Shown: positions 3,978 through 61,940 of the stretch, in pieces
Layout of the letters: every line of letters begins with the position of its first letter
Position numbering within the stretch: position 1 is the stretch's first letter
Assembly: GCF_018446385.1 (NCBI RefSeq)
Contig: NC_055996.1
Coordinates: 129,008,532 to 129,072,531 of the forward strand
Origin: Zingiber officinale
Lineage: Eukaryota; Streptophyta; Magnoliopsida; Zingiberales; Zingiberaceae
Reading direction: 5' to 3'
DNA length: 64,000 nucleotides
Notes under the pieces: generated by a model
What the model was told of the DNA's origin: nothing
The model's input: the letters and a program-made list of their open reading frames with translations, nothing else
Database searches by the model: none
Program-made: the position numbers and the translations under genes

Positions 3978-4671
3978 TGCCAAACATCTAGTCTTTCACA
4001 TCTGGTCCTTTAGACCTGTCAAACATTTGGTCCTTCAGACCTATTTGAACTTTCTCTGGCCTTGGTTAGTATATGTTCAAGTTGATCTACTAAGACTTGC
4101 CTGTAACACTGAGTTAGCACCATAAATATAAAATGATAAAGATAAAATAGTGTTAGCATTATTAATAATTCGCTAATTCGGTCGACTGCACGTGATCGAT
4201 CAGAAACTAGTCGATCACATATTACCTAAGGTTACCTTCTCCTAGGGATGTCAGCTTCACTCACTAGGACTTCCATTGTCTGACTTCTCTCATCAAGACT
4301 TCCACCACCTAGCATCACTCACTAGTGTCCGGCTTCATTGGCCAGAACTTCCACTACCTAGCTTCACTCATTAGGGTCCAACTTCACTTACCAGGATTTC
4401 CACTACTTAGTTTCACTCACTAGGGTCCGACTTCACTCACCACGACTTCCACTACCTAGTTTCACTCACTAGGGTCTAACTTCACTCACCAGGACTTTTT
4501 CTTGTCTAACCTCCAGTTAGGACTTACCCTTGTTAGTCATCTAATCCTAACTAGATTTTTCTCTTTTAAACATCAAATCCTTTTTAGATCAATCCTTTGT
4601 CAAACTGATCAAACTAAGATACATTATTAAATATCAAATTAAAACCCTAGAGATTGATTATCCTAACAAAA
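3978..4671 (-). mobile_element. LTR fragment, same family as the solo LTR at 7199-8798
   Basis: The segment CCTGTAACACTGAGTTAGCAC and the following 140 bp are the reverse complement of about 7690-7860, and 4500-4671 is the reverse complement of 7199-7340. Between them at 4250-4520 is the minisatellite TTCACTCACTAGGGTCC / CACTCACCAGGACTTCC. The fragment ends in CCTAACA, near the LTR terminus. It is incomplete and clearly older than the solo LTR. Confidence 0.75.
4250..4520. repeat. LTR-borne minisatellite (TTCACTCACTAGG type)
   Basis: Alternating units of about 45-50 bp: CTTCACTCACTAGGGTCC and CTTCACTCACCAGGACTTCC with CACTACCTAG. The same word family appears on the opposite strand at about 7350-7690 and on this strand at 55800-56050, 61550-61800 and weakly at 62930-62990. 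Confidence 0.8.
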
Positions 4672-7198: not shown

Positions 7199-8798
7199 TG
7201 TTGGGGTAATTCACCTTTAGAATTTCGATATTTGATAATATATTTAAGTTTAGTCAATTTGAACAAGAGTTGATCTAAACAGAACTTAATATTTGAAGGA
7301 GACTAGATAACTAGCAAAGGTAAGTCATAACCAAAGGATAGGCAAAGTGAAAATCCTGGTGAGTGAAGCCGAATCCTAGTAAATGAAGTTAGGTAATAAA
7401 AGTCCTAATGAGTGAAGTCAGACTCTAGTGAGTGAATTTAGGTGATGGAAGTCCTTGTAAGTGAAGTCGGACCCTAGTAAGTGAAACTAGGTAGTGGAAG
7501 TTCTGATAAGTGAAGTCGGGCCCTAATGAGTGAAGCTAGGTAGTGAAAGTCTTGGTGAATGAAATCGGACCCTAGTGAGTGAAGATAGATAGTGAAAGTC
7601 CTGGTGAGTGAAGCGGGGACCTAGTGAGTGAAGGTAGGTGGTGGAAGTCCTGGTGAGTGAAGTCAGGCAATGAAAGTCCTAGTGAATGAAGCTGAGCAGC
7701 CATAAGGGAGGTAACCTTTGGTTATATGTGATCGACTGGTTTCCGATCGACCGCGAGCGGTCGACTGGACCAGCAAATCTTGAAATCTATTAACACTGTA
7801 TTACTTTACTGTTTTATCTATTGTGCTAACTCAGTGTTGCAGGGAAGTCCAACTAGGTCAACGAACTGATCCGATAGCTGCCATGAAGTCCAAACAGGTC
7901 AACAGGCTGACCGGATGTCTGACAAGATGGTAAGTTAAGGTGGGTCACTGGAGGAGAGTGACTTGGTGAGGACGTGTTCCCTTTTTGAGGGAACAATATG
8001 CGTCAATCCAACTTAGATCCATTTTAGAAATCTAAGTTGAGATCTTGATTAGATTCTGATCTCGAGGAGACAGGATCTAATTACTACTCTACTTGTTATC
8101 GTGCTAACTTTCTTTTACAGGGCAGTATACCTTTTATTTGTCTCGGACTAACCTTTTCTTGCAGGAAAATAGTTTGCTAGAAAAGGAGGTTCGGGCGCTC
8201 AGAGTGGTCTGAGCGCCCGGAACTGGTCCTGGCGCCTAGAATGGTCGAAGCTTATCTTGTCGCCAGCTTGGAGCGTGCTGATTGGTTGGCTGATGTCACG
8301 GTCCAAGCGCTCGGAAGGGATCTAGGCGCACTGCCTATATAAGCAGCCTTCCACCAGGAGCATAGAACACAAGTTTCTTTTGTGATTACTTTTTTGCGCG
8401 TTGTTCCAAAGACGCTCCTGCGACTCCACGACGTGACTCCGACAGTCGAGTGACGCTGCTCCGATGACCAAGCAACACAACTCCGGCGACAGAGTGATGC
8501 GACTCCAACAACTAAAGCATAGTCTTCCAGATCTCTGAGAAGAAGTTGGTATATTTGTTTACTTCTGCACTTAAATTATACATTCATTGTATTACTCTTG
8601 TAAAAGATTTGCGAACTATTAGTGAATTGTCCACCGAAAGCACTCTCATGTGCGGACCTTGGAGTAGGAATCAACGAAAATTCTGAACCAAGTAAAACTT
8701 GGTTTGTTAGCATTGTTTTCATTGTTATCTTTCTGCTGCGTATTTTATTTTAGTATCGATTCTCCCACCTCTCCTCTAATGTTCTTTACGATCCAACA
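7199..8798 (+). mobile_element. Probable solo LTR
   Basis: Begins TGTTGG and ends CCAACA, the usual inverted termini, and is flanked by CTAAC on the left and CTAAT on the right, a near-perfect 5-bp target duplication. The core promoter TATATAAG at about 8336-8343 sets the orientation. Inside are the minisatellite at about 7350-7690 and a CCGACAGTCGAG / CGCTGCTCCGATGACC-type repeat downstream of the TATA box. No internal region or second LTR adjoins, so it most likely formed by LTR-LTR recombination. The retroelement superfamily cannot be told from the LTR alone. One mismatch in the flanks suggests some age. Confidence 0.75.
7350..7690. repeat. LTR-borne minisatellite inside solo LTR
   Basis: About eight imperfect units such as CCTAGTGAGTGAAGCTAGG and AAAGTCCTGGTGAGTGAAG. 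This is the reverse complement of the TTCACTCACTAGG repeat seen in the other LTRs of the window. Confidence 0.85.
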
Positions 8799-12682: not shown

Positions 12683-15380
12683 ATGGCCTCGGAGCTTGTC
12701 TACCGCGGCCACGATGCGCAGCCGCTGGACGACGGCGATCGCTACACCCCCAAGCCGGAGAAGCGCCTCGTATGGCTTTCCCGCACGGTTCGTTACTTCC
12801 TACGCGAGCAGCGCCCCCTTTTCGTTCTGTTGGGTATGGCCCTCGCCGCGCTCTTCTTTGCCTTCTTCCCCCGCGGCCCCCCCTCCGGCGCTCTCCACTT
12901 GGCGACCGCCGATCCGAAAGGATGGAGACCAACGGAGCCCCGACATCTGGCGTCGTATGGTGGGCACAGCTACCACCGGTTCGCGATGGATACTGTGGGG
13001 AGGGGGTTCGTTGGGGGGAAAGTTCCGCTGGGGCTGAAGCGGAAGGGGTTGCGCATCGTGGTGACCGGCGGGGCGGGGTTCGTCGGGAGCCACCTTGTGG
13101 ACCGGTTGATCGCGCGGGGGGACAGCGTGATCGTGGTGGACAACTTCTTCACGGGGAGGAAGGAGAACATTATGCACCATTTTGGGAACCCCAACTTCGA
13201 ACTCATCCGCCATGATGTCGTCGAGCCGATCCTCCTCGAGGTGGACCAAATCTACCACCTCGCCTGCCCCGCATCTCCCGTGCACTACAAGTTCAACCCC
13301 GTCAAGACGATCATATCCTTTTGTTTTTTTCTCGCCTCTGATCACTTTCTCTGACTAGTCCATTGATTAGGTTATCTTACGATTCTGATCTTTTGTCTTC
13401 TTTGAAAAAAAAAAGTGAATCTTAAATCTCGTTCCGAACTAGTTTTCAATCGAATTGCTTGTATTCAAACCTTCCTTAGTTTTCCATCACTGTTTTTTCG
13501 TCGTCAGTTCTGACAAGTGGATTTTTGAATTTTTCTAACTTCTCATGGATGAACTATTGTTTCTAGGTTTTCACGAGCAAAATAAATTCTTCTTAGGCTT
13601 CATTTGTTCCCAGGTTGCTTGGATGATACTTCTTCGGCATTTATTAAATTTTGCCGGATTTTTAGCTGTCAAATGCGTTCCTTAACCCTTTTATTCTTTC
13701 ACAAGACAAACGTGGTAGGGACCTTGAACATGCTTGGTCTGGCCAAAAGAGTAGGTGCTAGGTTCCTCCTCACCAGCACCAGCGAGGTCTACGGGGACCC
13801 CTTGCAGCACCCTCAAGTAGAGACCTACTGGGGCAATGTGAATCCCATCGGTATGCTTTGCCCTCTCCTTTAACATATCAAAACTGCTCAAAACATTTTG
13901 GAATTCTGCTATACAAACTGTTGAAAAAAAAAGAACATTTTGCTGGTTGGGTTTGAAATTGCAATCAGGTACTTAGTTTAAGTCATCGAGCAATATAGAT
14001 ATTATATGTGTTCTTCGCAGGTGTTAGAAGCTGCTATGATGAGGGCAAGCGAACCGCTGAGACATTGACCATGGACTACCACCGTGGTGCTCAAGTCGAG
14101 GTCTCCAAGCTCTACTTGATCTACTCAAACACCATGTTACATAGCATACTCAGGATTCAACTATTTTTTCTTTGCTTGTTTTGATAAATCTCGTGTCTCT
14201 TCTGCAGGTGAGAATTGCTCGGATCTTTAACACCTATGGCCCTAGGATGTGCATAGATGATGGTCGAGTCGTCAGCAACTTTGTGGCTCAGGTTTGCTAC
14301 TTAAATTCTGTTGAGGTATTCGTCCACTGAACGATATCAACGGTTTATTGATGGAAGCTTGGTGCGTTGATTTAGGCCCTGAGGAAGGAGCCATTGACGG
14401 TTTATGGCGATGGGAAGCAAACTAGGAGTTTCCAATACGTATCTGATTTGGTAGGCCATCAACTTCACCCTGTTCTTGAAATGTCTTACCTTTGTCAATT
14501 TGCTATACGACTTCTTGCAAGGCCAACTCATGTCCAGTTAGTACTTTGCTTAATGGATTTTCCTTTCTACTTGTATAACGTGGAAATTTCACATTTTGAA
14601 TTTAATTATATTATCACTAAGATGAGTTACTCATTCAATAATGCCCTAGATGGAAGACTAGGTCAAGGGCTCAACCACTCTAATATGTTCAATTAATTGA
14701 AAACCGTGCTAAAAATAACTCGAGAAACTCAAAATCAGGACCACAAGTTAGTCGACTAGGTTTGAACTATTCTTTAGTCTTCTCAACTTTATCGAAATCT
14801 TTGAATGACTCTAGGGTTCCAAGACAACTTTATCAGCCCCTTCGTTGGCATTTCTCCTTTGTCAGAGAACCAAGAAGGGGAAAAAAGAACTATCTTCTTT
14901 TAAATTACAGCCAGTTTAGCTTTCAAATTTAGCAATTATGCATACGAGTTGTGTTAGGTCAAATTTCGGAATTGCTTTTTGATTCATTGTCTTGATCTTT
15001 ACTAAACAAAGTTAAAATTGTGTAACATCCAACAGGTGGAGGGTCTGATGAGGTTGATGGAAGGAGAGCACATCGGCCCCTTCAACTTGGGCAACCCCGG
15101 CGAATTCACCATGCTTGAGCTGGCAAATGTCGTGCAGGAAACCATTGATTCCAATGCAAAGATTGAATTCCGCCCCAACACAGAGGATGACCCCCACAAG
15201 CGCAAGCCAGATATCACCCGTGCCAAGGAAATGCTCGGGTGGGAGCCCAAGATCTCCCTCCGACAGGGTCTCCCTCTCATGGTCACTGACTTCCAAAAAC
15301 GCATCTTTGGCGACCAATCGGTTACCGCTGCCACCACTGGCGCCGGCACTGGCACCGGCACCAGTGTTGGATCCACTTAA
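12683..15380 (+). CDS. UXS: UDP-glucuronate decarboxylase (UDP-xylose synthase), membrane type
   Basis: Converts UDP-glucuronate to UDP-xylose with bound NAD+, supplying xylan, xyloglucan and glycoprotein synthesis. Six exons (12683-13312, 13703-13850, 14021-14100, 14208-14291, 14376-14450, 15036-15380) give 453 codons including a TAA stop in a clean frame only if the first intron is AT-AC. The protein has a cytosolic N-terminus, one membrane anchor at residues 46-62 ([19 protein letters not shown] region), the Rossmann NAD motif GGAGFVG at 129-135, STSEVYGDP with the active-site Ser/Thr near 235-237, and the SDR pair Tyr265-Lys269 in SCYDEGKR. The anchor marks the Golgi type II group rather than the soluble group. 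The first ATG with GC-rich context is chosen; exon 1 encodes all N-terminal features. The C-terminus is rich in Ala, Thr and Gly. Confidence 0.97.
13313..13702 (+). other. U12-type AT-AC intron in UXS
   Basis: The 5' splice site is ATATCCTTTT directly after the codon for Ile210, the branch site is TTCCTTAAC at 13678-13686 (exact U12 consensus), and the 3' end is AC at 13701-13702, 17 nt after the branch A. Joining these restores [18 protein letters not shown], the continuity expected of UXS proteins. No GT donor gives that frame. Confidence 0.95.
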
Positions 15381-16043: not shown

Positions 16044-17413
16044 GGTGATGTTTGATTTTCTCAATCGGAATGGGAATGAGTATCATAGTATAGTATTATG
16101 GAATGTGAATGAAAATGAATATCATAGTATAGTATTGTGGAATGAGAATGAGTATGAGCTTAAATATCATTTTTAAAAATAATATTTGGTTAGTTGAATA
16201 TTTTCAATCGGAATAAATCTAAATTTCCTTTTTATCTTAGAGGAAAATAAGAGAAAAAATTAGATGAAAGAAAAAATTAAATGTAAGAGAAACATATGAT
16301 GAGAGAATCATGAATAAGAAAGTATGATGAGAAAAAATGAGGAGAGAGAGAGCGTGATACGAGAGATTGAGAAGAGAAAAAAAGTATAATAAGAGAGAAA
16401 GTAAGCTTAGAGAAAAAAAGTTATAGGAAAAAATGAAGAGAGAGAAAGTGTTATGACAAAAAATGAGAGATTGAGGAGAGAAAATATGATGAGAAAATGT
16501 AATAAAAGAGAAAGTGTGATGGAAAAAAATAAAGAGAGGACAAATGTGATAAGAGAAAATGAAAAGAGAGAAAGTATGATAAGATAGATTAAGGAGAGAG
16601 AAAATGTAGAGAGAGAGTATGATAAAATAGATTAAGGAGAGAGAAAGCACGATGAAAAAATGAGGAGAAAATAATGAAAGAGAGTATGTGATGAAAAAAT
16701 GAGGAGAGAGAGAGCGTGATAGGAGAGATTGAGAAGATAAAAAAAATATAATAAGAGAGAAAGTGTGCTTAGAGAAAAAAAGTTATGGGAAAAAAATGAA
16801 GAGAGAGAAAGTGTGATGACAAAAAATGAGAGATTGAAGAGAGAAAGTATGATGAGAAAATGTAATAAAAGAGAAAGTGTGATGGAAAAAAATAAAGAGA
16901 GGACAAATGTGATAAGAGAAAATGAAGAGAGAGAGTACGATGGAAGAAAATGAAGAGAGAGAAAATATAAATGAGATAAAATGTAGAGAGAGTATGATAA
17001 GATAGATTAAGGAGAGAGAAATCATGATGAGAAAACGATGAAAGAGAGTATGTGATGAGGAAGAATACAGAGAGAAAATGATAAAAATGTGTGATGAGAG
17101 AGGATGAGAGAGAAAATGTGATAAAAGAGAATAAGGAGAGAGAGTGAAATAAAAAAAATAATTAAACAAATATACTAAGGATATTTTTGTCTAAAATTTA
17201 ATTTTCATTCTCATTCCATCAAAATTCAAGGAAAGAGATGAATATCATTTATATTCAAAATTTTAAATTTCATTTTAAAATCTTAATTATATTTTCATCA
17301 ACCAAATATAAAATTTAAGAATGAATCTATTTTTTTTCTCAAACTTCTATATCAACCCTCAATCAACCAAATATAAAATTTTGATTCTATTCCTATCCAT
17401 CAAATCGAACATT
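16044..17413 (-). mobile_element. MITE-like element with TCTC-rich core (copy 2)
   Basis: Ends in imperfect inverted repeats (left GGTGATGTTTGATTTT, right read inward GTAATGTTCGATTTGATG). The left 200 bp read as reverse complement match the right end of the element at 157-1151 (shared TTTTCTCTTATTTTCCT, GATTTATTCCGAT and CTCATTCCACAATAC). The core from about 16240 to 17150 is a GA-rich minisatellite (GAGAGAGAAAGTGTGATG units), the complement of the TCTC core of copy 1, with an internal larger duplication (16490-16570 recurs near 16850-16930). Non-coding. Confidence 0.75.
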
Positions 17414-24000: not shown

Positions 24001-27000
24001 ATATTTGTTATCTGGGAAAGGAAATTATCAGAAAGATTATTCTCTTTTTAGTGTTATCTATAATTCTGTCTACCTTTAAAATTTTCCTTCAGAGATTGCT
24101 TCCATTTCCAAGTTTGTAGCTATTGTTTTGCTCTTATAGATTACAACATTATTATTATTATTATTATTATTTTTATTTCATCTTTCTATTTTATAGCATC
24201 TACAATCACATCTTGGTGCTTCTCCGTCGCTTCTCTCATGTCATCCACCCTTGGAGACTTTCCAAGTCTGACCGTGGAAGGCAGAAAGAAAGAAATCAAA
24301 GCCCTGTAAGTTTCTTGAAATACCTTTCTCATAAATTCGTGGATGATCAAGATTCCTCAAGGGAGAAGGGAGCACACTTTAATAGCATGTTGAGGGAAAA
24401 GTAGGATTTCTCAAGAAATCCTAAGATAGCCTTCTCTACCTTTTTATATATTATTGATGAATAGGAAATATTACACACTTGACCCTTAGACATTTATTCA
24501 TAATTCCCTGACAGTGTTCATCCAACTGATAATATTAATCTACTGATACATGTTCATCCAACTGATACTGAAATCAGACGTTGAGGTGCAATGTACTAGG
24601 TATGTGCTCTTCCCCAAGCATCAATATGGGTTGAGCTTCCAGATTCACAATAGAATGCAAATCTGCTCTAGCAACCAACGAATGGCTTCTTGTTTTTATA
24701 GTTTCACTGGAGTATCTAATTATTTTACCAGTGAAACTAGGTTGTGAGAGTTCAAATTTTTCCTCACAAATGTCCTTCCTGTCCTACTTTAGGAGTTGAA
24801 AAGTTCCTTTTAATATAACTGATTTCTATGCTGTATTGTGATTATTTCAATCTACTTAAGACAATTGAACTTCTACTTGTTGAACCAGAGGAAGAGGAAC
24901 TAATAAGCCACTGCACATAATGTTTCACATGTTGCTTTTTGTTAAAGCTAGTTTAGCAAAAAAACTCTTTCTTATTCCAGAAAGGTTACTCATATTCACT
25001 ACAAAGGAAACCTATTTATACACAGTGGAGATTAACAGCTAGTTGAATATAAAATATTATATCTAAACGATATTAGATTGTGTCCCTTCGATTACTGCAA
25101 GCGGAGTTAATACTATGAATCTTGTATTTTGTCATGCCCCCTCAAGAGGAGAATGGATGTTAATCATACTCATCTTGACCATAATCCATTCATGTTGGTT
25201 GGCATCTAAACCTTTTGTGAGAATGTCCGCCAATTGACATTGAGAGCTAACATATAAAACTTGGATTTTCTGACGTTCAACTTGTTCACGCACAAAATGC
25301 CAATCTATGTCGAAGTGTTTTGTCCGTTCATGCTGTATTGGATTGACGGCTATTTGAATGGCGGACTTATTATCCCATAGTAGTGGGACATGAGCATTAT
25401 GTGGGATATGGAAGGATCGTAGTAGATTGAGAATCCAAAGAACTTCGCATGTCGCTGTGGACATGGCTCGATATTCAGCCTCAGTTGAGCTCCTGGCCAC
25501 AGAATTTTGCTTCTTTGCTTTCCAGCTAATAATACTATTGCCCAGAAACACACAGTATCCCGAAACAGAACGTCGAGTATCTTGACACTTTGCCCAGTCA
25601 CTGTCACTATAGACCTTTAACGTGCGAGGTGAGGTGCTAGAGTAGAAAACGCCACACCCAGGGGATCCCTTTAAGTACCGTAATACTCGGAGTGCTGCTT
25701 TAAAATGCTCGATGGTAGGTTGACTCATGTACTGAGACAGAACCTGCACGGTATAACACAAATCAGGACGGGTAAATGTTAAATAGATGAGCTTACCTAC
25801 TAATTTCCGATATATGGTAGGATCAATCTTCTCTGAATCTGAATGATGAAGATGATCATTGCTCTGGAGTGGTGTCCGAAACGGTTTTGCACCCAGCAAA
25901 CCATACTCATGAAGAAGGTCTAATGTATACTTCCGTTGGCATAGGATAATCCCTTTCTTTGATCGGGCTATCTCTAGATCAAGGAAGTAGTGAGGGACAC
26001 CTAGGTCTTTGAGCTTGAATTCTCCTTTAAGATATCCAACTAGGTGTTCTAGCGCTGTTTCAGAAGTACTGCCGAGCATAATGTCGTCGACGTATACTAA
26101 AAGAGCAATGAATAGATCACCGTTAGTATATGTGAAAAGGGAATGGTCAGCAGAGCTCTTCTGGAAGCCATATCGAAAAAGGATCTCTGAGAATTTTGTG
26201 TTCCATTGTCGAGAGGCTTGCTTGAGGCCGTATAATGCCTTGGTGAGTTGGCAAGCCGGTTTCTCCTGACTAGAGTGCGGGACTGTAGATGGATAGCCAG
26301 GTGGTAAATCCATAAAAATGGTCTCGATAAGCTCTCCATTGAGGAAGGCATTATTGACGTCAAGTTGCCGGAGAAACCATGACTGTGACGCAGCAAGTGC
26401 AAAAAATAGTCGAACTGTAGTATGCTTGATTACGGGGCTGAAAGTTTCTTTGTAATCGAAGTGCTTGATTTGGCTATAGCCCTTAGCAACGAGGCGTGCC
26501 TTATGTCGCTCTATAGTTCCATCGGCATTCATTTTACCTTAAAGATCCACTTGCAGCCAATCGTGTGTATTGATTTTGGCACCGAAACTACTTTCCAAGT
26601 TTGGTTGGCGTCGAGCGTAGCTAACTCAGCTTCCATTGCTGATATCCATTCAGCATGTTGTGTTGCTTCCTCATATGATTGTGGCTCCATAGTTGTGGAA
26701 AGAACAGAGGTAAAAGCTGCATAGGAAGGGCTTAATCGGATGGAGCTCAGGTATCTTTGAATGGGATAAGCCATGCTATGATTAGCTTGTGGATCAGATA
26801 TATCGTGTTGATAGATGCTCAGATACTTGGGTACTTGCCGAATCCGCTGAGATCGAGGTCTAAGGTCTATGACATCTTCTGTTATTGTCTCAGGAGTAAG
26901 TTCTTGGTTATCATGACTCTTAGTTGTTGCAGATTGCTCTTCAGTCTGCTCACTGTCCATAGCTTGAGAGGGAATTTCTGGTTGGGCTGGACTTGTCATG

Positions 27001-30000
27001 GTAGTTTCAGGCTTATCAATTGCAGGTAGAAATTCCTTAATGGACTCATTGGGGTTGTTGATTTCTGGAAGCCCCCTTTCAGGAGGCGGGGCATTTAGAC
27101 GAGAAATGTAGTCTGAAGCAAAGGGAAAAACATCTTCGTGAAAGACGACGTTTCGGGAGACAAAAATCTCTTCAGTTTCAAGATCATAGATAGTGTATCC
27201 TTTCATTCCGGCTGGATAGCCAATGAAGATGCAACGTCGGGCTCGTTCATCCAATTTCGTGCGATTGCGTTTCAGTGTTGAGGCGAAGCACAGACATCCA
27301 AAGACCCGCAAGTAGTCATATTTTGGCATTTTTCCAGTGAGCTTCTCATATGGGGTTACGAAATGGAGTCGCTGAACAGGTATACGATTGATTAGGTGTG
27401 TTGCTGTGAGTACGGCATAGCCCCAAAATTTCTTTGGTAGATTGGACTGAAATAAAAGTGCGCGAGCCATATTGAGAAGATGTTGGTGACGCCTTTCCAC
27501 AACTCCATTCTGTTCTGGTGTCTCCACGCAAGATTTTTGATGCTCAATTCCTTGTTGGTCATAGTTAAAGAAGTTGAATTCCTTTGCTTGATCAGATCGA
27601 ATGTTATGGAATTTAACAGGGACCATGTTGATAAAAGATTGCAGTATTTTTGGTGCTTCAGATTTTTGATGCATAAGGTATGTCCAAACGGCTCGTGAAT
27701 GATCTTCTACGATGGTGAGGAAGAACCGCTGTCCTCCTATAGTAGGAGCGTGGCATGGACCCCATGTGTCTATATGAACTAGATCAAACAAAGGTCGTGC
27801 GTCGACATGTTCGGTAAAGGGTAACCTTTTTTGTTTTGCCTTGGGGCAAGTCAAACAAATATTATTTGGATAACTATGAATTTGTGGATAAAATTTAGAA
27901 ATATAAGGAATAATGCGATGAGATGTGTGGCCTAATCGGAAATGCCATAAATCAAAGCAAACAGAATTAGGCATGAGAGTTTTAGATACATATTGTAAAT
28001 TGAAAGCAAAATTTTTGATGAGTGGTTGCTGCAGAAGGTATAGACTATGTTTTTGCTCAGCCTTCCCAATCATCATTCTGGAAGTTAATTCCTGAAGGAA
28101 ACAAGCATTAGGAAAGAAACGTGGTTGAATCAAGTTTCTAACAAGCAGTTTATGAACCGAAATCAGATTTACTGTAAAACTTGGTATATATAAAACATCG
28201 TTGAGTATTAAATTAGGACCAAGGGTAACTTGTCCAATGTGAGTCACAGGTGCTCCATTACCATCAGGAAATTGGACACGAGCTGTGACAGTTTTTGTAG
28301 AGGAAAATAAAGAAAAATTTGAGCACATATGTTCACTGGCTCCTGAGTCAACTATCCAAGTATCTTTTGGAATTAAATGTGCTTTGTGTGTATGTGATTC
28401 TAAGAAAGAAGAGTTACCAGCGAAGTTTTGTGTTTTCTCAGGATTGGGAATGGCTGACGTAGTCGTCGCAACTGTAGATGAGTTCTGCCCATTTTGCATT
28501 AGTTGCTTCAACTGCCCTCGTGATAATGAAAGAATCTCATCATCATTGCCACCAGAGGTAGTGCCTGCAGTTGCAATGACACTGTGAGCATAGGAAGGTT
28601 TTGAAGATTAAACTTTCCTTTTCCTTTCTTTTTATTGTAGTTAGGTGGAAGACCGACGAGGAGGTAGCATTGCTCAATGTTGTGATTTTTGCGATGGCAG
28701 TAGGTGCAGTATTTGGTAGGAGCACCATTATTGGGGTGAGAAGCTTCAGATTTGTGAGCAAGGAGGGCAGACGCTTCAACCGAAAGCGGCAATACTGGTT
28801 GTTTAAGCCTCTGTTCCTCCTGGTATGCCGAGTGATAAGCTTCATCTAGGGATGGAAGCGGTTTTTGATTCATCATTTGTGACCTGGTGATGTTGAACTC
28901 TGAGTTGAGAGCATTAAGAAACATGAATAGGTTATCTTTGTCTTTTTGCTCTCTGAACGGTTTGAAGCAAGAGTTATCACACTTTCCACAAGAACATTGG
29001 GGAACTGGTCGGAAGATGCTATATTCTTGGAGTAGCGCGTTGTATTTCACAAAAAGTTCATCTACGGACAGAGATCCTTGTGTGAGTGAGCCAAGTTCTC
29101 GTTGAAGATGAGCTACCCGAGTGTCATCTGGTTTTGTAAACCGTTGTTGCAGTGTTGTCCAAATTTCGTAAGCTGTGGCACTATCAGGGATGGATGCAGC
29201 AATATTTGGTTCAATGCACCGAAGCAACCAGGTGACGACCAGATTGTTGCATTTGTGCCATAATTTGTATTGAGGATCAGCATTTTCAGGTGCCGAAAGT
29301 TCACCAGTAATATAAGCTTCTTTGTCTCGAATAGAAAGTGCTCGCTGGACCTGTCGAGACCAGGTAGAATAATTAGTAGAGTTGAGCAGCTGGGTGGTAA
29401 GCTGTATTTCTCCGGTTTCAGTTGGCAGAATCCTATAGTGAAGAGGAATTGAGGAGGAAGATGATTCTGCATGAGAATCCCTGGTTATAGCTTTGAACAG
29501 CTCAAAGAGTTGTTCGGTTGTGATAGAAGCCCCAGCCATGCATGGGAGAAGAGGGACAGCAGATTAGAGAGAAGAAGGAAAAGAAATTCAAATCAGAGCC
29601 ACTCTGCTCTGCTCTGATACCATGTTAAAGCTAGTTTAGCAAAAAAACTCTTTCTTATTCCAGAAAGGTTACTCATATTCACTACAAAGGAAACCTATTT
29701 ATACACAGTGGAGATTAACAGCTAGTTGAATATAAAATATTATATCTAAACGATATTAGATTGTGTCCCTTCGATTACTGCACTAGCAGGTTCCGATGCA
29801 GGCGGAGTTAATACTATGAATCTTGTATTTTGTCACTTTTTGTATTTTTCTGTCATCTAAATATATTATGGAATTTGATTCTCAAATTTGTATCTATCAA
29901 GCATAATGCAACGCTAAACAATGTTTTATTCTATGCAGGTTCAAGAAAGTGATAGACCAATACCTAAGTGAGTACACAATGTTCTACTTTAACACAAGTC

Positions 30001-30948: not shown

Positions 30949-33806
30949 TTATTCCACTTGGATTTCTGACATTTTTTGAGAATCCAGTGACAATGTCATC
31001 GATTGGTGGTGTAGCTTAGCGAATAATCCTACTAATGGTGCAGTGTTGTATGTGCATGCCTCCGTCTGCATATAGTTCTCTCGGTCATCCCTAAACCAAT
31101 CTCGATCATCTGGACCGCCAACGATAGCACCGGTCAACACATTCGGATTTGCCCCTCGTCGCCCGTACCAATCATAGTACCCCTATACTCATAGTCGACA
31201 ATGTTAAACACAATTCAACTAAATTTGAAATACATCCCTAACCTAACATATAAGGGGTACATGAACTAATCTGAATATTATTTATTATTATCTTGTTTTT
31301 TTATGTTTAAAGAGTTTATTTTTGTCTACCTGTGTACACCCAATGAAGTCCTTGCTCCTCTTCAATGCCACAATGGAGGCCCCACGGTGGTGGACCCGCA
31401 CCGGGTATTTGGGCCCAAAGCCCACTAAATAGCTGATCCGCATCGGATTCGAGCCCAGAATGTACTCGGCCTGCGACCTAGCCAGGTCCATAACCTCGTC
31501 CGGCCCAGCGTCGCCGCCCGGGCAGCGGAGTCGGCCGCCCGCCGCCTCCAGCTGAGCGGAGTAGACGGCAAGGAGGAAGGCGGCGCCGGTGACGTACTGC
31601 ATGTTGTTCCAACGGCGCACGTAGAGCATTCCGCCGGGGGAGCGCCGCACGTTGCCCGCGCCGGCGTTCCGGCCGAGGCAAGCGCACACGTAGTGCTCCG
31701 CCTTCGACCTGTACAGCTGCAGCTCCGCCGTCTGAGCCTTGGTTAGGTTTTTCTCATCGCGCAACAGCTGCCGCATCTCAAATTAAAAGATAAAAAGATT
31801 TCTTTAGCAACGGATTCAACAAAAGACAAAAAGAAAATTATAATTCAAGCGTTCGAATTTCAATAGATTAATTCCGAAGATAAATAATTTTTTTATTCAT
31901 TTATTAAATATATATTTGGACAATAATAAGAATAATAATAAAAAAAAACATCCATCATGAAACTCTATTAAAAAAACCCACCAATACTGGTAAAATTATA
32001 GGGTCCATAACTCTTATAATTTAGACTTATCATTTCATAACATTTCCGTTATCGTAACTACTACCATCCAAACTTTTTTTGTTTATATTTTATGAATTTA
32101 TTCTTTTCATACAATTGATGGATAATTTATAATTTAATGTGTATTATAAGAATAATAATGTCATTAATTGTGCCATTCTCATTCTCATAGGGACTGGTGA
32201 GCAGTGATTTAAAACAACATAAGAGTGCTTTAATTTTTTTTGTCCTCTAAAGTATACTTGACTGTATAAAATTGTACTTTCAATAAGGAAAAAAAAATTT
32301 GTCTCCTCCGTGATTAAATTATGAATAGGTAAGTAGGTGTTTTTAATTAGTATGTTGACGTGGACAGCTGACGATTCATGTTCCACGTGGTAGAGAGTTG
32401 AGCTGTCAAACTTATTATCAAAAATATTGTTTGGATTGTGGGTTTGGAAATGACATTTTGGGAATGATTACCAAACACATATAATTTGATGGGTTTCATT
32501 TCCATTCATATTCTCATTCCATCCTACTATTAAACTCATACCCATAGTCATCCCCATCGTTTAACCAAACGAAATTTTAATCACTTTTCAAGAAGAAAGT
32601 ATTAAGTAATTGTAAGTAATTTAACCAAAAATGAACGGACCTTGGACGCCAGGATTTGGACGCCGGCGAACTTGACGTCCCAGCTGAACTCCGTCACCGC
32701 CCACCCTGTGCCCCCTAACGCGCCGCCGTTCTCCACCACGTACTGCAGGTACTCCGCCCGCGCCGTCGCCCTGTGCAGCCACAGCGCCGCCCAAAGCAGC
32801 TCGTCCTCGTAGCCGCTCCACGACGGGTAGTAGCTCCTCGCCTCCCTGATGCTGCCGTCGTACTTGCCCCGGTGCGTGTCCGCGAACTCAAACAGCTGGG
32901 CAAATGATTCCGTATTTGAGGTCGATTTCCGGAAACGATCGGCGAGTCCGAAACAGAGGAAAGGCAGAGTTTAGCTGCTCATTCGATGGTTAATTAATCG
33001 ATCGGGTGATCACCTGTCGAGCATGATGGAGGAGGAGGCGGGCGTACTTGGGATTGGACTTCCGGAACACGACGGAGGCGGCGGCCATGGCAGCCGCCGT
33101 CTCGCCGGCGACGTCCGACCCGGGATTGTCCTTGTCAATTTTGTACGCTTGCCGCGACGTCGTCATGTCCTCCGGCCGCTGCCAGCAGTAGTGATCGGTG
33201 TCGCCGTCGCCCACCTGAGACATTTTTAAACAAAATTAATCCCTCGACGAAAATTCAATCCTTCATCAAACCGATCAAAGATTGAAGGAGCAAGACGACG
33301 AGCCTCGGCCCAGAGGACGAAGGGGTGGGTGTGAGCCTTGATGAAGTAATCGGTGCCCCACTTGATGGCCTCCAGAGCACGCCAGTACTCGCCGGCGGCG
33401 GCGATTTCCTCTCCGTACTCGATCACGCTCCACGACAGCATTGTGACGGTGAAGGCCATGGGAAGGCCGAACTTGACGTGGTCGCCGGCGTCGTAGTATC
33501 CCCCAACCAAATCCACCTGCGCGCATATACAATGATACACAAGGATCCAGCACTACTACTCGATCAATCACTTAAAAAATCTCTACAAAAACCACGCACT
33601 CCCTGTTGAAGGCCGTCGGTGAGGCCGGAGTGACCGCGCCAGGCGACGTGCTGAGTGTAGGGAAGCCGGCCGGAGCGCTGCGCCTCGAAGTAAAGCAGAG
33701 ACTTGGACAGAGCATCCTTGTAATCGAATTCCTTCGCGCCAGAACCAACACTAACTACGGCGGAGAGAACCACCAAAACGACGGCCATAAAGCTCTCCAC
33801 TTCCAT
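30949..33806 (-). CDS. Secreted GH9 endo-1,4-beta-glucanase (class B)
   Basis: Hydrolyses internal beta-1,4-glucosidic bonds in cell-wall glucans. Six exons on the minus strand (33600-33806, 33304-33516, 33014-33214, 32641-32895, 31330-31776, 30949-31182) give 518 residues in one clean frame. Features: signal peptide within residues 1-24 ([18 protein letters not shown]); [13 protein letters not shown] with the catalytic-region Asp residues (about 74-86); [34 protein letters not shown]; the His signature [10 protein letters not shown] (about 417-426); and the C-terminal signature with Asp473/Asp474 and catalytic Glu482 ([14 protein letters not shown]). There is no transmembrane anchor (class A) and no C-terminal CBM49 (class C), hence class B. 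Intron 2 (33215-33303) appears to be GC-AG. Intron 4 carries a short MITE-like sequence. The start is the only ATG preceding a signal peptide. Confidence 0.96.
32426..32573. mobile_element. Short MITE-like insertion in GH9 intron 4
   Basis: About 150 bp with imperfect inverted ends (TTGTTTGGATTG on the left, TTCGTTTGGTTAAA read inward from the right). Inside are CTCATTCCATCCTACTA and CTCATACCCATAG, words related to the ends of the elements at 157 and 16044. Confidence 0.4.
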
Positions 33807-38170: not shown

Positions 38171-39283
38171 GATGGTTATCAATAATCTACTAAATCATGT
38201 TTATTAATAAAACCTTTATTAATATATTAAATAAATAAAATAACTTTCAAAATGGATAAAGTACTATTAAATTTAATAAAATGTATAAATTTTAAACAAT
38301 CAAACGAGTTTAATTTGAAAGATCAATAACACCTAAATTAAATTTAAGTTAAAAAATCAAAACAATATTATTTCAAGATTCATTTTAAATTCTATTGGGC
38401 TAAGGGCTTAGTGACTTTACTACAAATCTCCTCTCATTTGGGCTTGTTTACAATTCCACCTGGGCTCATTTACAATCCTACGTAATCATAATTGCAGTTT
38501 TCAGGATGCAACCACAAAATAAATTTTAATATTTTTTTGATTTTAAAATTACAATATGATTTATTTGTTTCAGGCCTTTTCATTCAATATTCAATTGAAC
38601 TGTGTGGTAGGCTAATGGTCACTTTTGCTTTAATTCGTGGGAGAGCATTTTAAAATATTATTTTTAAAAAATTATGTTCATCTTAAGACATTTAAATGGG
38701 AAAGATTTTATTTTATAGGAGATTGTTCTCCCATCAATTCGGCTCCTATTTTCATATGATAATCAATTCGGTTATCCTGAAGACTAATTTCATTTCTTTA
38801 ATACTCACCATCTAAGTATAGATTTTAATTAAAAAAAATGAAATCAAATGAGAGAAAAAAAGTAATTTTCAAAATTTTAAATCAGCGATTGCTCTACGTG
38901 TAATGCACGAGCGAAAGCGGTTGCTCGAAGTAAGTAAGAAAGAGAAGGGTGACGAATCGCATTCGCCTTTCCAGATAAGATAGTGACTAATTTAATTTTC
39001 AAAATTAATAGTTTTAAAAATTGGGTGGAAGAAATAAGTTGTCTTTCAAAATGGATAAAAAGAAGAAAAAAAATGCGTGGATCAATTTATTTTTAAAAAA
39101 TAGTAAAAAAGTTTATTCTTTATCTTTTAATTTTTTTAATTCTTTTTATTTAAACCCACCGGTTTCGAGTCGACTCGAGATCTTTTGCTCGTGCGACCTG
39201 CGGTGCGAATTCGAAATATCCCAAGACGCTCGCTTCTTCTGCTCGGCTCGGAAGGCCAAAGCCGTCGGCCGGAGCCATCGCCC
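38168..39283. other. Spacer and PFP-beta upstream region
   Basis: AT-rich until about 39150, then abruptly GC-rich across the presumed leader (GTCGACTCGAG to CCGGAGCCATCGCCC). The long frame starting at 39021 is not used; it overlaps exon 1 out of frame. Confidence 0.45.
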
Positions 39284-45445
<6,162 letters not shown>

Positions 45446-47380: not shown

Positions 47381-50300
47381 ATGGCCGCTAGACGTATCCC
47401 TTCTTCCCTCCTCCTCTTCCTCCTCTCCCTCATCTCTGCCGCGACCTCAGCCGCCCAGGCGCCGTCGACGAGGAACATCCAGGTGCAATTCCCCTCCTTC
47501 CCCGCCCCCGCCTTCCAAATCCCCCCTCCTCCGCCGCCGGCGCAGGCTCCGGCCCCGGCTTCGACTCCCCCGCTGCCACAATCCAGCACTTCCAGAGTGA
47601 GGGTCGCCGTCGCCATCACCGCCTCCAGCAGCATCGCCCTCTGCGCTCTTCTTTTTGCGGGCTTCTTCTTCCTCGCCCAGCGCCTCCAGGTCAGAGTCGG
47701 CGATGGCGCCCTCCCCGAGCGCTCAGATTCGGCACCTAAGGGTCAGACCGCGTCGGGCGGAATTGTTGACGAGAATGGGCTGGACGCCATCTACTGGCGC
47801 GAGTTCAACGAGAAGAGGTGCCCCTTCTGCCATAACGAGTTGGATGCCTCTGAAGTCCGGGAACAAGGCGATAGTGGCGGTGGCGGTGGCGGTGGGGATG
47901 CTGATGGATCGTCCCCGGAAAATCCGGGGAGGGTACAAGAAAGGCCGTTGCTTCCCGCCGGCAGCATCAGCTCATCGCAGTCGTTTTCTTCGGAGCAGAG
48001 CACGCCGTCTGTGTTCTCCTTTGCCGCCGTCCGAACCGCTGGGAGCGCGAAGCATATGGGTGTTTCCCGCCAGGAATCAGCCACTCGGTCAGCGGGAAGA
48101 TCGAATTCGGAGTCTTCGTTATCATCGGCAGCGCTACCGCCTCCGTCTCTTCCTCCCCATCGACCGACGATGACATCAATCGCGGCCTCTGTGCCCCTGC
48201 CAGCTTCGGAATCAAACGCGCCTCCACCTCGACAACCACCGGCGACGACCAAATCGAGCGCGGCCCCTCCAGCACCTCCTCCCCCACCGGTCGCGAAATC
48301 AATTCCCGCGGGCCCACCTCCACCACCTCCTCCTCCAGGGAAAACCCCACCCGCAGCTCCATCACGCCCTCCATTGCCTCCGCCGGCCCCACCAACCGGC
48401 GGCGGCCGTACAGCCATCGGCCCCTCAGCGATGCCGCCGCAGTCGTCGGCCGCGGCGGCGGCGAAGAAGCTGAAACCGCTTCACTGGGACAAGATGAACC
48501 CGGACAACGCCCAACACTCCATGGTCTGGGACAAGATCACGGACGGTTCATTCAGGTAAACACTCGCTCAATGAATGATCAATCATCTGTTTGTCGAAAT
48601 GCCCCACTCAGTTTCCAGTACATTTGTCATACGTACAACCTTGAACAGGAGACCTCACTTTAGGTACAACAAACCACCAACTTACGATTGATTTAGGAGA
48701 ACAAATCTGGATCAGGAAAAATTTCATGTCTCAACAACCTACAATTACAAACTATGAATTGCTTTCAAAAAAAAAAAAAAAAAGTAAACCAACACGCAAT
48801 GGAAATGATTTACTCTCTTTTAAATCGAAGAATTCAACTGATCGAACAGATCCATCTTTGCCTGTCTGTTTCTTGTTAATTCTCTACAAGTTTGAAGATT
48901 TCATATTGCTTAGCTGACATGGTTTTTGACCTAATCCTCTTAAGACCTGGTGTTAGCGCCAGCGGACAGGAGGCTGATATAACATTAAGAATGTCCTGCT
49001 TGTTGCATGATAATGATAATCTTTTCATTATTATTTGGATGTTGAGCTGGTTTAGTAGAATATTATAATCCATAAGATTGTGCAGGGACAAGTTGTGTTT
49101 CTTGCGTACTTAAATTACATGTACCAGTCTGGTGCATGTGTAGATTGAGAGAGTTGAAAACTTGAAGTGCATTCAATATTTATATGAACTGCTTGTGTGA
49201 TTGGAGATTGCATTTTGTTTAGTCAAGACTTGCCGTTTTTCTAAAGTCGAATGGGAACCAAGTCAATTCCCTCGACTGAGTCGATGTGTTCATCTAAGTC
49301 AACGATTAAATTTCTAACTCTTCTCGTTAATGTTCGACTTAGAAAAAGTGTTTAATTTCTTTGTACCCGTAACAGCACTGTTACATTGATATATGTTTTT
49401 TTTTTTTTTACTCTGTTACAGATTCGATGAGGACATATTGGAAGTCCTGTTTGGCACGATGGCCACCAACCGGAAGTCCCCCGCCGGCGGTAAAGCTGGC
49501 GGTGCTTCCGGCAATTCCGGCCCCAGCACGCAGACAACCGTGATCTCCTTTCTGGACCCGCGCAGGTCGCAGAACATCGCTATCGTCCTCCGCTCACTGT
49601 CCCTGAGCCGCTCGGACATCCTCGACGCCCTCGTCGAGGGCCGCGGCCTCCCCGTTGAAGTCCTCGAGCGCCTCACCAAGGTAGCCCCTACCGAGGAGGA
49701 GGCGGCGTTGATCCGTAGCTACGACGGCAACCCCGGCAAGCTCACTGAAGCGGATTCCTTCCTCTTCCACATCCTCCGCGCTGTCCCCTCCCCGTTCGCC
49801 CGCTTCAACGCCATGCTCTTCCGGGCCAACTACGAGCACGAGGTGGCGCAGCTGCGGCAGTCGCTCCAGACGATGGAGGCGGCGTGCAAGGAAATGAAGA
49901 CCCGCGGCCTTTTGCTCAAGCTACTGGAAGCGGTCCTCAAAGCCGGCAACCTCATGAACGCCGGCACGGCCCGTGGCAACGCCCAGGCCTTCAACCTCTC
50001 CGCCCTCTGCAAGCTCTCCGACGTGAAGAGCGCCGACGGGAGCACGACGCTGCTGCAGTTCGTGGTGGAGGAGGTCGTCCGGTCGGAGGGCAAGCGGCTT
50101 GTTGTCAAACGCAACCATAGCTTCGGCCCGACGACCCTGGACCGCACCACGAGCCACAGCGGCGCCTCCGGAACGAGGGAGGAAAGGGAGAAGGAGTACA
50201 TCAAGCTGGGCTTGCCCATCGTCGGGGGGATCAGCGACGAGTTCTCCAGCGTCAAGAAGGCGGCCAGCATCGACCCCGACGCCCTCGCAGGTACCTGCTC

Positions 50301-50727
50301 CTCTCTAACCGCCCGCCTGGCTGAGATTCAGCAGTTCCTGGGCACGTGCGGCAACGACGGGTTCACGAGGGAGATGCGGGAGTTCGCGGCGGCGGCGGCG
50401 GAGGATCTGCGGGCGGCGAGAGCAGAGCAGGGGCGGGTGATGGAGCTGGTGAGGGGCGTCACGGACTACTACCAGCCGGGATCCTCCAGGGCGAAGGGAA
50501 GCCACCCGATGCTGCTGTTCGTCATCGTGAGAGACTTCTTGAACATGGTCGACAAGACCTGCGTCGACATCGCCCGCAACCTGCAGACGAAGAAGAAGCC
50601 GCAGCAGGCGGAAGCGTCGGGGAGTCAAAGGAAACCAGTGGCGCGGTTTCCCTGCTTGCCGCCGAACTTCTTGTCGGAAAATCCCAAGTCGGAATCGAGC
50701 AGCGACGACGATGAGGCCGGATCGTGA
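47381..50727 (+). CDS. Class I formin (FH1-FH2 actin nucleator, membrane-anchored)
   Basis: Nucleates and elongates actin filaments from the plasma membrane or endomembranes. Two exons (47381-48555 and 49422-50727) with a phase-2 GT-AG intron give 826 residues. Order: signal peptide 1-24; Pro-rich outer segment about 37-68 (PSFPAPAFQIPPPPPPAQAP), the class I wall-facing stretch; transmembrane helix about 74-100; a Ser-rich linker with an RCPFCHNE CxxC motif near 145; FH1 polyproline about 260-355; and the FH2 domain from LKPLHWDKM (about 366) to roughly 790, including the lasso Trp, KAGNLMNAGTARGNAQAF and LLQFVVEEV. The tail is acidic (SESSSDDDEAG). The single intron falls early in FH2. The GC content is high throughout, typical of monocot genes. 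Which of the many plant FH paralogues it is cannot be settled here. Confidence 0.97.
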
Positions 50728-54725: not shown

Positions 54726-56195
54726 TGTTAGGACCAAAAGTAGCTAGAGGGGGGAGGAGGGGGTGCGCTTCGTTGCTTGGCGTTGCTTGTTTCTTCTTGG
54801 ATGTGCAGCGGAAAATACAGAAACAAATACAACCACGCTAACACTAGGATTTTACTTGGTATCCACCTCCAAAGGAGGTGACTAATCCAAGGATCCACAC
54901 CACGCACGCACCCTCCACTATGAAACACTCCTTTTCGGTAACTACCGAGGGCGGAGAAGCCCTACAAGACTCTCAGTACAAGAAGAAGAAAGGGTAGTAA
55001 AGATTAAGTAAAAGCTTACAAGAAATGCAGTGAAAAACCCTAACCCTAACTTCTTCCTCTTGCAATAGATCCGCCTCTTGACTTGGAAAGCCTCCAAGAA
55101 CCTTCAAGAACTGGCGATCACGTGCTTGTAGAGAGCTGTGGAGGAGCTGGAATGAATCTGAGAAGAGCTTGTGAAGAGATACCGAAGACCACGCTCGCCT
55201 GCGGCTTTAAACCCGACGCAACGGTCAGATCCCGATCGATTCAAATGTTCCGAATCGATCGGGGAGGCTTTGGATCGATCCACGGATCGATCCGGCGCCT
55301 ATCGAAAGCGCTGGATCGATCCACGGATCGATCCGGCGCTTATCGCAGCATCGTCCCGATCGATCGGCCGATCGATCGGGACCTCGATCGATCCACGGAT
55401 CGATCCGAGCTTCGAAGAATGGATCGATCCATCGATCGATCTGGATCGATCCACGGATCGATCCGACTTGGTTTTGCCCAAAACCAAGTCCCAAACCTCC
55501 TAACCAACATCCGGTCAACCTTGACCTGTTGGTACATCATGCCTCGCATCTGGTCACTCCCTTGACCTGCCAGGACTCCCCACCAAGTGTCCGGTCAATC
55601 CCTTTGACCCACTTGGACTTTTACTCGTCGTGCCAAGTATCCGGTCACTCCATTGACCTACTTGGACTTCCACCAGATGTCTGGTCAACCTTGACCCATC
55701 TGGACTTCCTTCCTTGCCAAGTATCCAGTCAATCCCTTTGACCTACTTGGACTTCCCAACACCAGATGTCCGATCATCCTTGATCCATCTGGATTTCCTT
55801 CCTTGCCTGGCTTCACTCACCAGGAATTTCACCTAGCTTCACTCACTAGGGTTTTCCATCTGCCTAGCTTCACTCACTAGGACTTTCACCTGGCTTCACT
55901 CACCAGGATTTCCTTCTGCCTAGCTTCACTCACTAAGACTTTCCATCTGCCTAGCTTCACTCACTAGGACTTTCACCTGGCTTCACTCACCAGGATTTCC
56001 TTCTGCCTAGCTTCACTCACTAGGACTTTCCATCTGCCTAACTTGCCAGTTAGGACTTCCCAGTCAAGTATCCAGTCAACCTTGACCTACTTGACTCTTC
56101 TTCAATCAATATCTTATTGTCAAACATCTAAACCCTAACCAAGACTCAGCTTGGTTAACCAGGTCACCCTTGACCTGAGGGATATTGCACCAACA
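54726..56195 (-). repeat. Left LTR of gag-only element
   Basis: About 1470 bp. Contains the palindrome array at about 55235-55470, then GTCCGGTCA / CACTTGGACTT units, then the TTCACTCACTAGG minisatellite at 55800-56050. Confidence 0.95.
55235..55470. repeat. ATCGATC palindrome array in left LTR
   Basis: At least six copies of pairs like GGATCGATCCACGGATCGAT with variants CGATCGATCGGGAC. Each half is itself a perfect 10-bp palindrome. The array keeps all frames open, producing Asp-Arg-Ser and Gly-Ser-Ile repeats on both strands that are not genes. Confidence 0.9.
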
Positions 56196-58695: not shown

Positions 58696-60387
58696 CTAGG
58701 ATAGCCTCCTTGTGACCTTGTTAGTGACTTTCTTAGACTTCTTAGAAGTCTTAGTCACTTGGTTGCAAAAATACTCTAGGGATGACTTCCTAGTATTCTT
58801 GACTTGACCACTAAACCTAGGGTTTGTTCCATAACTATATGGAACCCTATGATAACTAGGCACATCCTTCTTAGCCTTTGGTTTGTATCCCAAACCTCTA
58901 TGGCTATTTGATGGCTTTGACTTTCCTAGCCCTAGGTTTTGCTCATTTTGCCCTTTTAGGATATTTTCCATCCTTTTTAAGGCCTTTTCCATTTTATCAA
59001 GTCTTGATCTCAAGACTTGATTTTCTATCATTAAATCCTTAGAATTTGGTTTTTCATTAAGTCCATGAGCATTTTGGTTTCTAGGCTTGTATCTAAAATC
59101 CTTAGAGTTATTGCCTAGACTTTTACCTACATTCCTAACCCTAGGAGTGATAGTCTTAGCATGTAGGGCCACATGCTTTTCCTTAAAGCCCTCATGCTTT
59201 CTATTCTTATGGTAAATTGCATTAAAATGATAAAAATTAGAACTATCATGCTTTTTACCATTTTGCAAAGGAATAGGCTCAATGAAAGTTACCTTCCTTT
59301 TTACCTTGGAGGCTCCCCCTTGACTAGTGCCTCCTTGAGCCTTGACCTTCTTCTTCCCCTTGGGGCATTGACTACGATAATGCCCCTTTTGATTGCAAGA
59401 GAAGCATATAATATGCTCCTTGCTCTTCTTTGTGTTGGGGATGGTCTCCTTGGGCTTCACCTTGCCCTTTTGTGCCACTTGGCCCTTCTTCTTGGCTAAT
59501 TTAGGGCACTTGCTCTTGTAGTGCCCATGTTCCCTACATTCAAAGCATATAATATGATTTTTATTATTAATTGAAATATTTATACCTTTGCTTGTAGGGG
59601 TGGAATCTTTTTCTTTGGATCCGGAGGTAGAAGCTTCCTCTTGATCGGACCTTGATTCTCCTCCATTTGATTTTTCTTGACTTATGGAGGTAGAAGCTTC
59701 TTCCTCCTCTTCTTCTCTTGACCCGGATGTAGAAGCTTCTCCTTCTTCTTGATCCGGCGTCACCAAGGATTGCTCCCCCTCAATCCTAGAGGTGGAGGCT
59801 TCATCATCTTGAATATGAAACAAGGAGTATGCTCTCTCCTTGTTCCCTTCGTTGCATTCCCTTGAGGATGAAGCTTCTTGGATTTTTTCTTCTTCGGAGG
59901 TTGAGCATCTCTCAACCTCGGAATCCTCCTCTTGGTCTTGCTCCAAAGAGTCTCCCTCTCTTGATTCTTCTTGATCTCGTACAGTGGAGGGGATCTCTTC
60001 ATGAAGCTTGGCCAATTTGCTCCAAAGCTCCTTGGCATCTTCGAATTCTCCAACTTGAGCCAAGATGTGGCTAGGCAATAAGTTGACCAAAAGCTTGGTC
60101 ACTTTGTCATTTGCCTCGCCCCTTTGAATTTGCTCCGAGCTCCATCTGCTTTTCTTTAGAAGCTTGCCCTTGGAGTTCGTTGGAGCTTTGAAGCCTTCCA
60201 TTAGAGCAAACCATTGCTCTATCTCCATCATAAGAAAGTTTTCGATTCTTGATCTCCAAGAATCAAAACTTGTGGAAGTGTATGGTGGAGCCACCCTTGT
60301 GTCAAATCCAAGTCCATCTTGGAATTGCATCTTGAAGTTGAGCTTGATGAAGTCTTGAACTTGAAGAATTTGCTCCAACTTCTTCAC
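58696..60387 (-). CDS. Gag-like protein of the non-autonomous LTR element
   Basis: 563 residues on the minus strand, adjoining the primer-site end. The N-terminal part has a gag pattern (FDSWRSRIENFLMM, IEQWFALMEG, DAKELWSKLAKLHE). A long acidic, repetitive segment with EEEASTS-like repeats follows (about 140-270), then two CCHC knuckles, CFECREHGHYKSKC and CFSCNQKGHYRSQC, then a basic coiled region (MIENQVLRSRLDKMEKAL). No protease follows. Such proteins bind element RNA and form particles in related families. Confidence 0.85.
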   Translation of the reverse strand: MKKLEQILQVQDFIKLNFKMQFQDGLGFDTRVAPPYTSTSFDSWRSRIENFLMMEIEQWFALMEGFKAPTNSKGKLLKKSRWSSEQIQRGEANDKVTKLLVNLLPSHILAQVGEFEDAKELWSKLAKLHEEIPSTVRDQEESREGDSLEQDQEEDSEVERCSTSEEEKIQEASSSRECNEGNKERAYSLFHIQDDEASTSRIEGEQSLVTPDQEEGEASTSGSREEEEEEASTSISQEKSNGGESRSDQEEASTSGSKEKDSTPTSKGINISINNKNHIICFECREHGHYKSKCPKLAKKKGQVAQKGKVKPKETIPNTKKSKEHIICFSCNQKGHYRSQCPKGKKKVKAQGGTSQGGASKVKRKVTFIEPIPLQNGKKHDSSNFYHFNAIYHKNRKHEGFKEKHVALHAKTITPRVRNVGKSLGNNSKDFRYKPRNQNAHGLNEKPNSKDLMIENQVLRSRLDKMEKALKRMENILKGQNEQNLGLGKSKPSNSHRGLGYKPKAKKDVPSYHRVPYSYGTNPRFSGQVKNTRKSSLEYFCNQVTKTSKKSKKVTNKVTRRLS

Positions 60388-60462
60388 CCTCTAGCTTTTC
60401 TTGATATGCTTGACCCTTCCGGCGATGATTCCGGTGAAGAGCGGCCTTGCTCTGATACCACT

Positions 60463-61940
60463 TGTTAGGACCAAAAGTAGCTAGAGGGGGGGTGAATAGC
60501 TCGTCGCGTGCTCGTCGCTTGGCGTTGCTTGTTTCTTCAAGGATATGCAGCGGAAAATACAGAAACAAATACAACCACGCTAACACTAGGATTTTACTTG
60601 GTATCCACCTCCAAAGGAGGTGACTAATCCAAGGATCCACACCACGCACGCACCCTCCACTATGAAACACTCCTTTTCGGTAACTACCGAGGGCGGAGAA
60701 GCCCTACAAGACTCTCAGTACAAGAAGAAGAAAGGGTAGTAAAGATTAAGTAAAAGCTTACAAGAAATGCAGTGAAAAACCCTAACCCTAACTTCTTCCT
60801 CTTGCAATAGATCCGCCTCTTGACTTGGAAAGCCTCCAAGAACCTTCAAGAACTGGCGATCACGTGCTTGTAGAGAGCTGTGGAGGAGCTGGAATGAATC
60901 TGAGAAGAGCTCGTAAAGAGATGCCGAAGACCACGCTCGCCTGCGGCTTTAAACCCGACGCAACGGTCGGATCCCGATCGATTCGAATGTTCCGAATCGA
61001 TCGGGGAGGCTTTGGATCGATCCACGGATCGATCCGGCCTGCGATAAGCGCTGGATCGATCCACGGATCGATCCGGCGCTTATCGCGCGACAGTCCCGAT
61101 CGATCGCCCGATCACGTCGCGACCTGGATCGATCCACGGATCGATCCGAGCTTCTGAGAAGAACGGATCGATCCACCGATCGATCCACGATCTGATCGAT
61201 CCACGGATCGATCCAAGACTTGGTTTTTGCCCAAACCAAGTCCCAAACCTCCTAACCAACATCCGGTCAACCTTGACCGTTGGTACATCATGCCTCGCAT
61301 CCGGTCACTCCTTGACCTGCCAGACTCCCACCAAGTGTCCGGTCAATCCCTTTGACCCACTTGGACTTTTACTCGTCGTGCAAAGTATCCGGTCACTCCA
61401 TTGACCTACTTGGACTTCCACCAGATGTCCGGTCAACCTTGACCCATCTGGACTTCCTTCTGCCAAGTATCCAATCAATCCTTTGACCTACTTGGACTTC
61501 CCAACACCAGATGTCCGATCATCCTTGATCCATCTGGATTTCCTTCCTTGCCTGGCTTCACTCACCAGGACTTTCACCTAGCTTCACTCACTAGGGTTTT
61601 CCATCTGCCTAGCTTCACTCACTAGGACTTTCACCTGGCTTCACTCACCAGGATTTCCTTCTGCCTAGCTTCACTCACTAGGACTTTCCATCTGCCTAGC
61701 TTCACTCACTAGGACTTTCACCTGGCTTCACTCACCAGGATTTCCTTCTGCCTAGCTTCACTCACTAGGACTTTCCATCTGCCTAACTTGCCAGTTAGGA
61801 CTTCCCAGTCAAGTATCCAGTCAACCTTGACCTACTTGACTCTTCTTCAATCAATATCTTATTGTCAAACATCTAAACCCTAACCAAGACTCAGCTTGGT
61901 TAACCAGGTCACCCTTGACCTGAGGGATATTGCACCAACA
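60463..61940 (-). repeat. Right LTR of gag-only element
   Basis: About 1478 bp, matching the left LTR end to end with scattered small differences. The palindrome array is at about 61010-61215 and the minisatellite at 61550-61800. Confidence 0.95.

Follow-up and report, generated by a model that had tools for sequence, protein, structure and literature searches.

A predicted U12-type AT-AC intron in the coding region of a membrane-anchored plant UDP-xylose synthase gene

The principal gene discussed here lies on the forward strand of a 64-kb window (the whole stretch of DNA that was analysed) and encodes a predicted UDP-xylose synthase (UXS). Its coding part begins with an ATG at 12683 and consists of six exons. 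Exon 1 (12683 to 13312) supplies a hydrophobic anchor and the NAD-binding GxxGxxG motif, exon 2 (13703 to 13850) begins with K-T-N-V-V-G, exon 3 (14021 to 14100) is followed by an unusual donor, exons 4 (14208 to 14291) and 5 (14376 to 14450) read openly in the spliced model, and exon 6 (15036 to 15380) runs to the stop codon. When an AT-AC intron between exons 1 and 2 and four GT-AG introns are removed, the product has 453 codons, all open, followed by the stop. The donor of intron 3 (14101 to 14106, GTCTCC) is poor, yet this junction is needed by the protein match (QVE-VRIARIF); it may be an inherently inefficient donor or reflect variation in the sequence, and it gives a faint hint that this copy may be imperfect, though the 453 codons are open.

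The identity of the product as a UXS, proposed in the initial annotation, is supported by several lines of evidence. Residues 120 to 429 match the solved UDP-glucuronate decarboxylase 1 (Protein Data Bank [PDB] code 2b69, which we take to be the human enzyme) with 448 bits, the GxxGxxG motif is present as GGAGFVG at residue 129, a YxxxK motif lies at residue 265, and the Pfam Epimerase model is matched with 159 bits (cut-off, 20.9). Searches against the curated bacterial and archaeal models of NCBIfam matched 27 families, and none of the 25 among the matches listed reached its cut-off; since none of these 25 models is of the eukaryotic UXS type, the miss is no defining failure. A hydrophobic stretch starting at residue 45, in the N-terminal part encoded by exon 1, agrees with the membrane-anchored form that had been suggested. 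Together, these features support a membrane-anchored UXS, presumably of the UXS2/UXS4-like subgroup, which would convert UDP-glucuronate to UDP-xylose.

Elsewhere in the window, two degenerate tandem arrays with TCTCATCACACTTTCTCTC-type units (404 to 1106 and 16129 to 17174) flank the UXS gene in opposite orientations and are approximately 68 to 72% alike, and further arrays share a common CTAGCTTCACTCACTAGGACTT-type unit (4278 to 4497, 7346 to 7664 in reverse orientation, 55791 to 56044, and 61549 to 61789). A copia-type retrotransposon extends over three frames on the minus strand (25132 to 29563); the two frames scanned, which exclude 28508 to 29563, exceed the cut-offs of the Pfam models RVT_2, Pol_BBD, and SH3_retrovirus, and a minus-strand frame at 58696 to 60390 combines a zinc knuckle with a sub-threshold match to copia gag. 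Other coding regions comprise a partial glycosyl hydrolase family 9 protein (31288 to 31782, minus strand), a formin-like (FH2) gene (47384 to 50727), and two frames at 39018 to 40013 that we take to resemble the start of pyrophosphate-dependent phosphofructokinase. An Rfam scan of the whole window returned no matches at the gathering threshold.

The predicted AT-AC intron of the UXS gene occupies positions 13313 to 13702 of the forward strand (390 nt). It opens with ATATCCTTTTG and closes with TTTCAC; exon 1 terminates in ACGATC at 13312, and AAGACAAACGTG opens exon 2 at 13703. Because exon 1 measures 630 nt from the ATG, the intron is in phase 0. The consensus of the 5' splice site of U12 AT-AC introns is ATATCCTTT, and the 5' splice site found here, ATATCCTTTT (13313 to 13322), matches this motif exactly. 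AT-AC donors described in SMYD2 agree with the same consensus (PMC7367187). Near the 3' end, TTCCTTAAC (13678 to 13686) conforms to TTCCTTRAY, which has been given as the plant U12 branch region (PMC5932401), and 17 nt separate its likely branch A, at 13685, from the final base of the intron. No AC or AG occurs downstream of that adenine before the AC of the 3' splice site (13701 to 13702). The coordinates given in the initial annotation are exact, and the donor, branch site, branch-to-acceptor distance, and phase are as described there. Read in all three frames, the intron shows 7, 7, and 8 stops. The GC content, measured over 100 nt on each side of the two borders, changes from 59% (exon 1) to 32% (intron) at the donor and from 37% (intron) to 56% (exon 2) at the acceptor.

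The choice of this junction was evaluated against alternative splice pairs with donors between 13240 and 13419. Counting the proposed one, 46 pairs of the AT-AC, AT-AG, GT-AG, and GC-AG types keep the frame without a stop, and 50 splice products of at least 400 aa, again including the proposed one, were scored with a profile of 81 proteins. This profile comprised the best 80 of 338 relatives from genome contigs and one of six viral loci (L081), the five others (24 to 30% identity) being left out; its members are the longest stop-to-stop plus-strand frames, not individually checked. The AT and AC ends at 13313 and 13702 restore the frame and give the highest score among the 50 choices (522.8 bits), followed by the pairing of AT at 13310 with the same AC (514.9 bits), and no alternative among the best 25 of the 50 outscores them. 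The resulting junction aligns without gaps to the segment NPIKTLKTNTIGTLNMLG of the solved UDP-glucuronate decarboxylase 1, and the alignment of the 81 relatives has no insertions within the junction segment NPVKTIKTNVVG. Residues T209 and G216 are well kept (T in 79 and G in 78 of the 81), and K211 is K in 58; some junction positions vary, namely I210 (I in 17) and N213 (N in 5, S in 55), which counts against the assignment.

These comparisons bear on two other readings of the junction. Removal by the major spliceosome through a GT-AG pair, with the U12 motifs present by coincidence, has in its favour nine GT-AG pairs near the junction that are in frame and stop-free, such as donor 13301 with acceptor 13705. 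However, the best product of this kind (donor 13323, GTTTTTTTCT) scores 503.8 bits, 19 below the AT-AC product, and the coincidence that it demands at this junction has an expectation near 2 to 4 × 10−7, so that we consider it scarcely credible. A U12-type intron ending always or mainly in AG, i.e., an AT-AG intron with its acceptor at 13705 and one lysine fewer in the product, is favoured by the AG at 13704 to 13705, which keeps the reading frame at a distance of 20 nt from the branch adenine. Against it, the AC at 13702 precedes this AG, the AT-AG product scores 8.9 bits less (513.9), and the lysine it would remove is K211, which is kept in most of the relatives as well as in the solved UDP-glucuronate decarboxylase 1; we therefore judge it very improbable. 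The statement in the initial annotation that only the AT-AC splice gives the continuity NPVKTI-KTNVVG consequently needs qualification: the continuity stands, but the exclusivity is slightly overstated, as splicing to 13705 also keeps the frame at the cost of one lysine.

The weight of the U12 signals depends on where they occur. Taken singly in the 64 kb, the donor and branch motifs are not remarkable: TTCCTTRAC was observed once against a mean of 1.86 in shuffles, and ATATCCTTTT twice against a mean of 0.48. When perfect sets of donor, branch, and acceptor were sought on both strands of the whole window with a donor-to-branch distance below 4 kb, one was observed, namely, that of the AT-AC intron, and 60 simulated windows held 12 such sets in total (0.2 per window). 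At the junction required by homology, the expectation of the U12 signature falls to 1.8 × 10−7 with the composition of the window and 3.9 × 10−7 with that of the intron, as calculated for first-order Markov sequence over 31 donor and 11 branch positions, a range that we chose ourselves. An AT-AC intron of a type other than U12 is a further reading, and such introns exist (PMC7072748), but here both the donor and the branch site fit the U12 consensus (for the branch, TTCCTTRAY; PMC5932401), and this reading deserves next to no credence. Three other exact donors in the window (27195, 46992, and 53246) were dropped as U12 introns, as all of their branch partners carry one mismatch. With one mismatch allowed per motif, the forward strand yields 49 pairs against a simulated mean of 35.3; thus, no further U12 candidate is claimed.

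We accordingly consider it highly probable, from the sequence, that the first of the five introns interrupting the coding region of this membrane-anchored plant UXS, at 13313 to 13702, belongs to the U12-type AT-AC class and is functional. The class assignment made in the initial annotation is thereby supported, by virtue of the donor and branch motifs with their fitting spacing, the single perfect set in the window, the low expectation at the junction, the best score against the family profile, the gap-free alignment, and the GC shift at both borders. The intron is best read as a standard, ordinary case that offers nothing new mechanistically. By established knowledge of the minor spliceosome, U11 would pair with the donor ATATCCTTT and U12 with TTCCTTAAC, bulging the branch A at 13685; U6atac would then take the place of U11 at the donor and take part in catalysis, and the first downstream AC would be joined, restoring the continuity NPVKTI-KTNVVG. 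Mutations of DROL1 in Arabidopsis impair the splicing of AT-AC U12 introns (PMC11039992), and plant AT-AC introns such as this one probably also require DROL1. If the intron is retained, the translated frame stops at 13352 to 13354 after 223 residues, past the GxxGxxG motif at 129 and short of the YxxxK motif at 265, and an inactive product is therefore expected; a retained transcript would presumably also be subject to mRNA decay. The AT-AC splice fixes the gene model, since the coding sequence would otherwise be interrupted at residue 210, past the NAD-binding motif and ahead of YxxxK, and it adds one more clear case to the plant U12 introns. Automatic annotators may miss it, as had been suggested.

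It had further been suggested that slow splicing of this intron could limit the supply of UDP-xylose, and on this, the literature points both ways. In a mini-gene, the AT-AC intron of CBP20 was spliced to 4.77%, whereas two U2 introns reached 79.66% (of which 37.05% were alternative products) and 94.4%; splicing of U12 introns generally improved with their length (PMC5932401). Plant genes carrying AT-AC introns seldom show low expression (PMC7072748), and tobacco has 17 UXS genes (PMC10631120); both points count against a limiting role. The more specific proposal that regulated slow removal of the AT-AC intron sets the amount of membrane-bound UXS, and so ties minor-spliceosome activity to the supply of cell-wall xylan in this plant, strikes us as improbable, though such a link from minor splicing to cell-wall sugars would be of wider interest if true.

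With respect to frequency, AT-AC introns have been reported to make up 13% of the U12 introns in maize, 22% in rice, 23% in soybean, and 26% in Arabidopsis (PMC7367187), and another count for Arabidopsis, quoted in PMC5932401, is 4.8%. Their description in the initial annotation as a small minority even among minor introns is fair in the light of these figures, if mild. Among all plant splice pairs, 0.092% are AT-AC, and these introns tend toward conservation among plants: when 64 Arabidopsis AT-AC pairs were compared with other plants, 967 sequences had AT-AC, 93 had another non-canonical pair, and 157 had GT-AG (PMC7072748). Phase 0, which applies to an average of 22% of minor introns (PMC10639083), is the less common phase for this class and counts against the assignment of the UXS intron. 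Two DNA-pattern scans of viral contigs for orthologous introns recovered at least 132 loci (at least 120 of them from one scan), and 4 of these 132 contained a distant relative (22 to 28% identity), with no close one among the matches listed. In the open-licence library searched, we found no paper that connects UXS or xylose with U12 or minor introns, and "uxs" and "uxs1" had no occurrences in the main texts searched; orthologous copies of the intron may nevertheless be on record elsewhere.

Comparison with known UXS genes gives a divided picture. The UXS groups of tobacco have 11 and 6 introns at conserved positions (PMC10631120), resembling the present gene in having several, of which five are coding here. 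In lotus, four UXS genes are described as having a single exon and the fifth as having two (PMC12787360), unlike our model with five coding introns, and these exon counts speak against an intron shared by every plant UXS gene. The tobacco and lotus accounts disagree on UXS introns, with no intron class named in either passage (PMC10631120 and PMC12787360). The nearest counterparts of the intron itself are the U12-type AT-AC introns of plants, such as that of CBP20, which has a different host gene and is conserved across land plants, the UXS intron being described here from one gene. The two are alike in their AT-AC ends, U12 branch site, and location within the coding region, and the 390 nt of the UXS intron fall inside the range of 76 to 2,733 nt given in the same source (PMC5932401).
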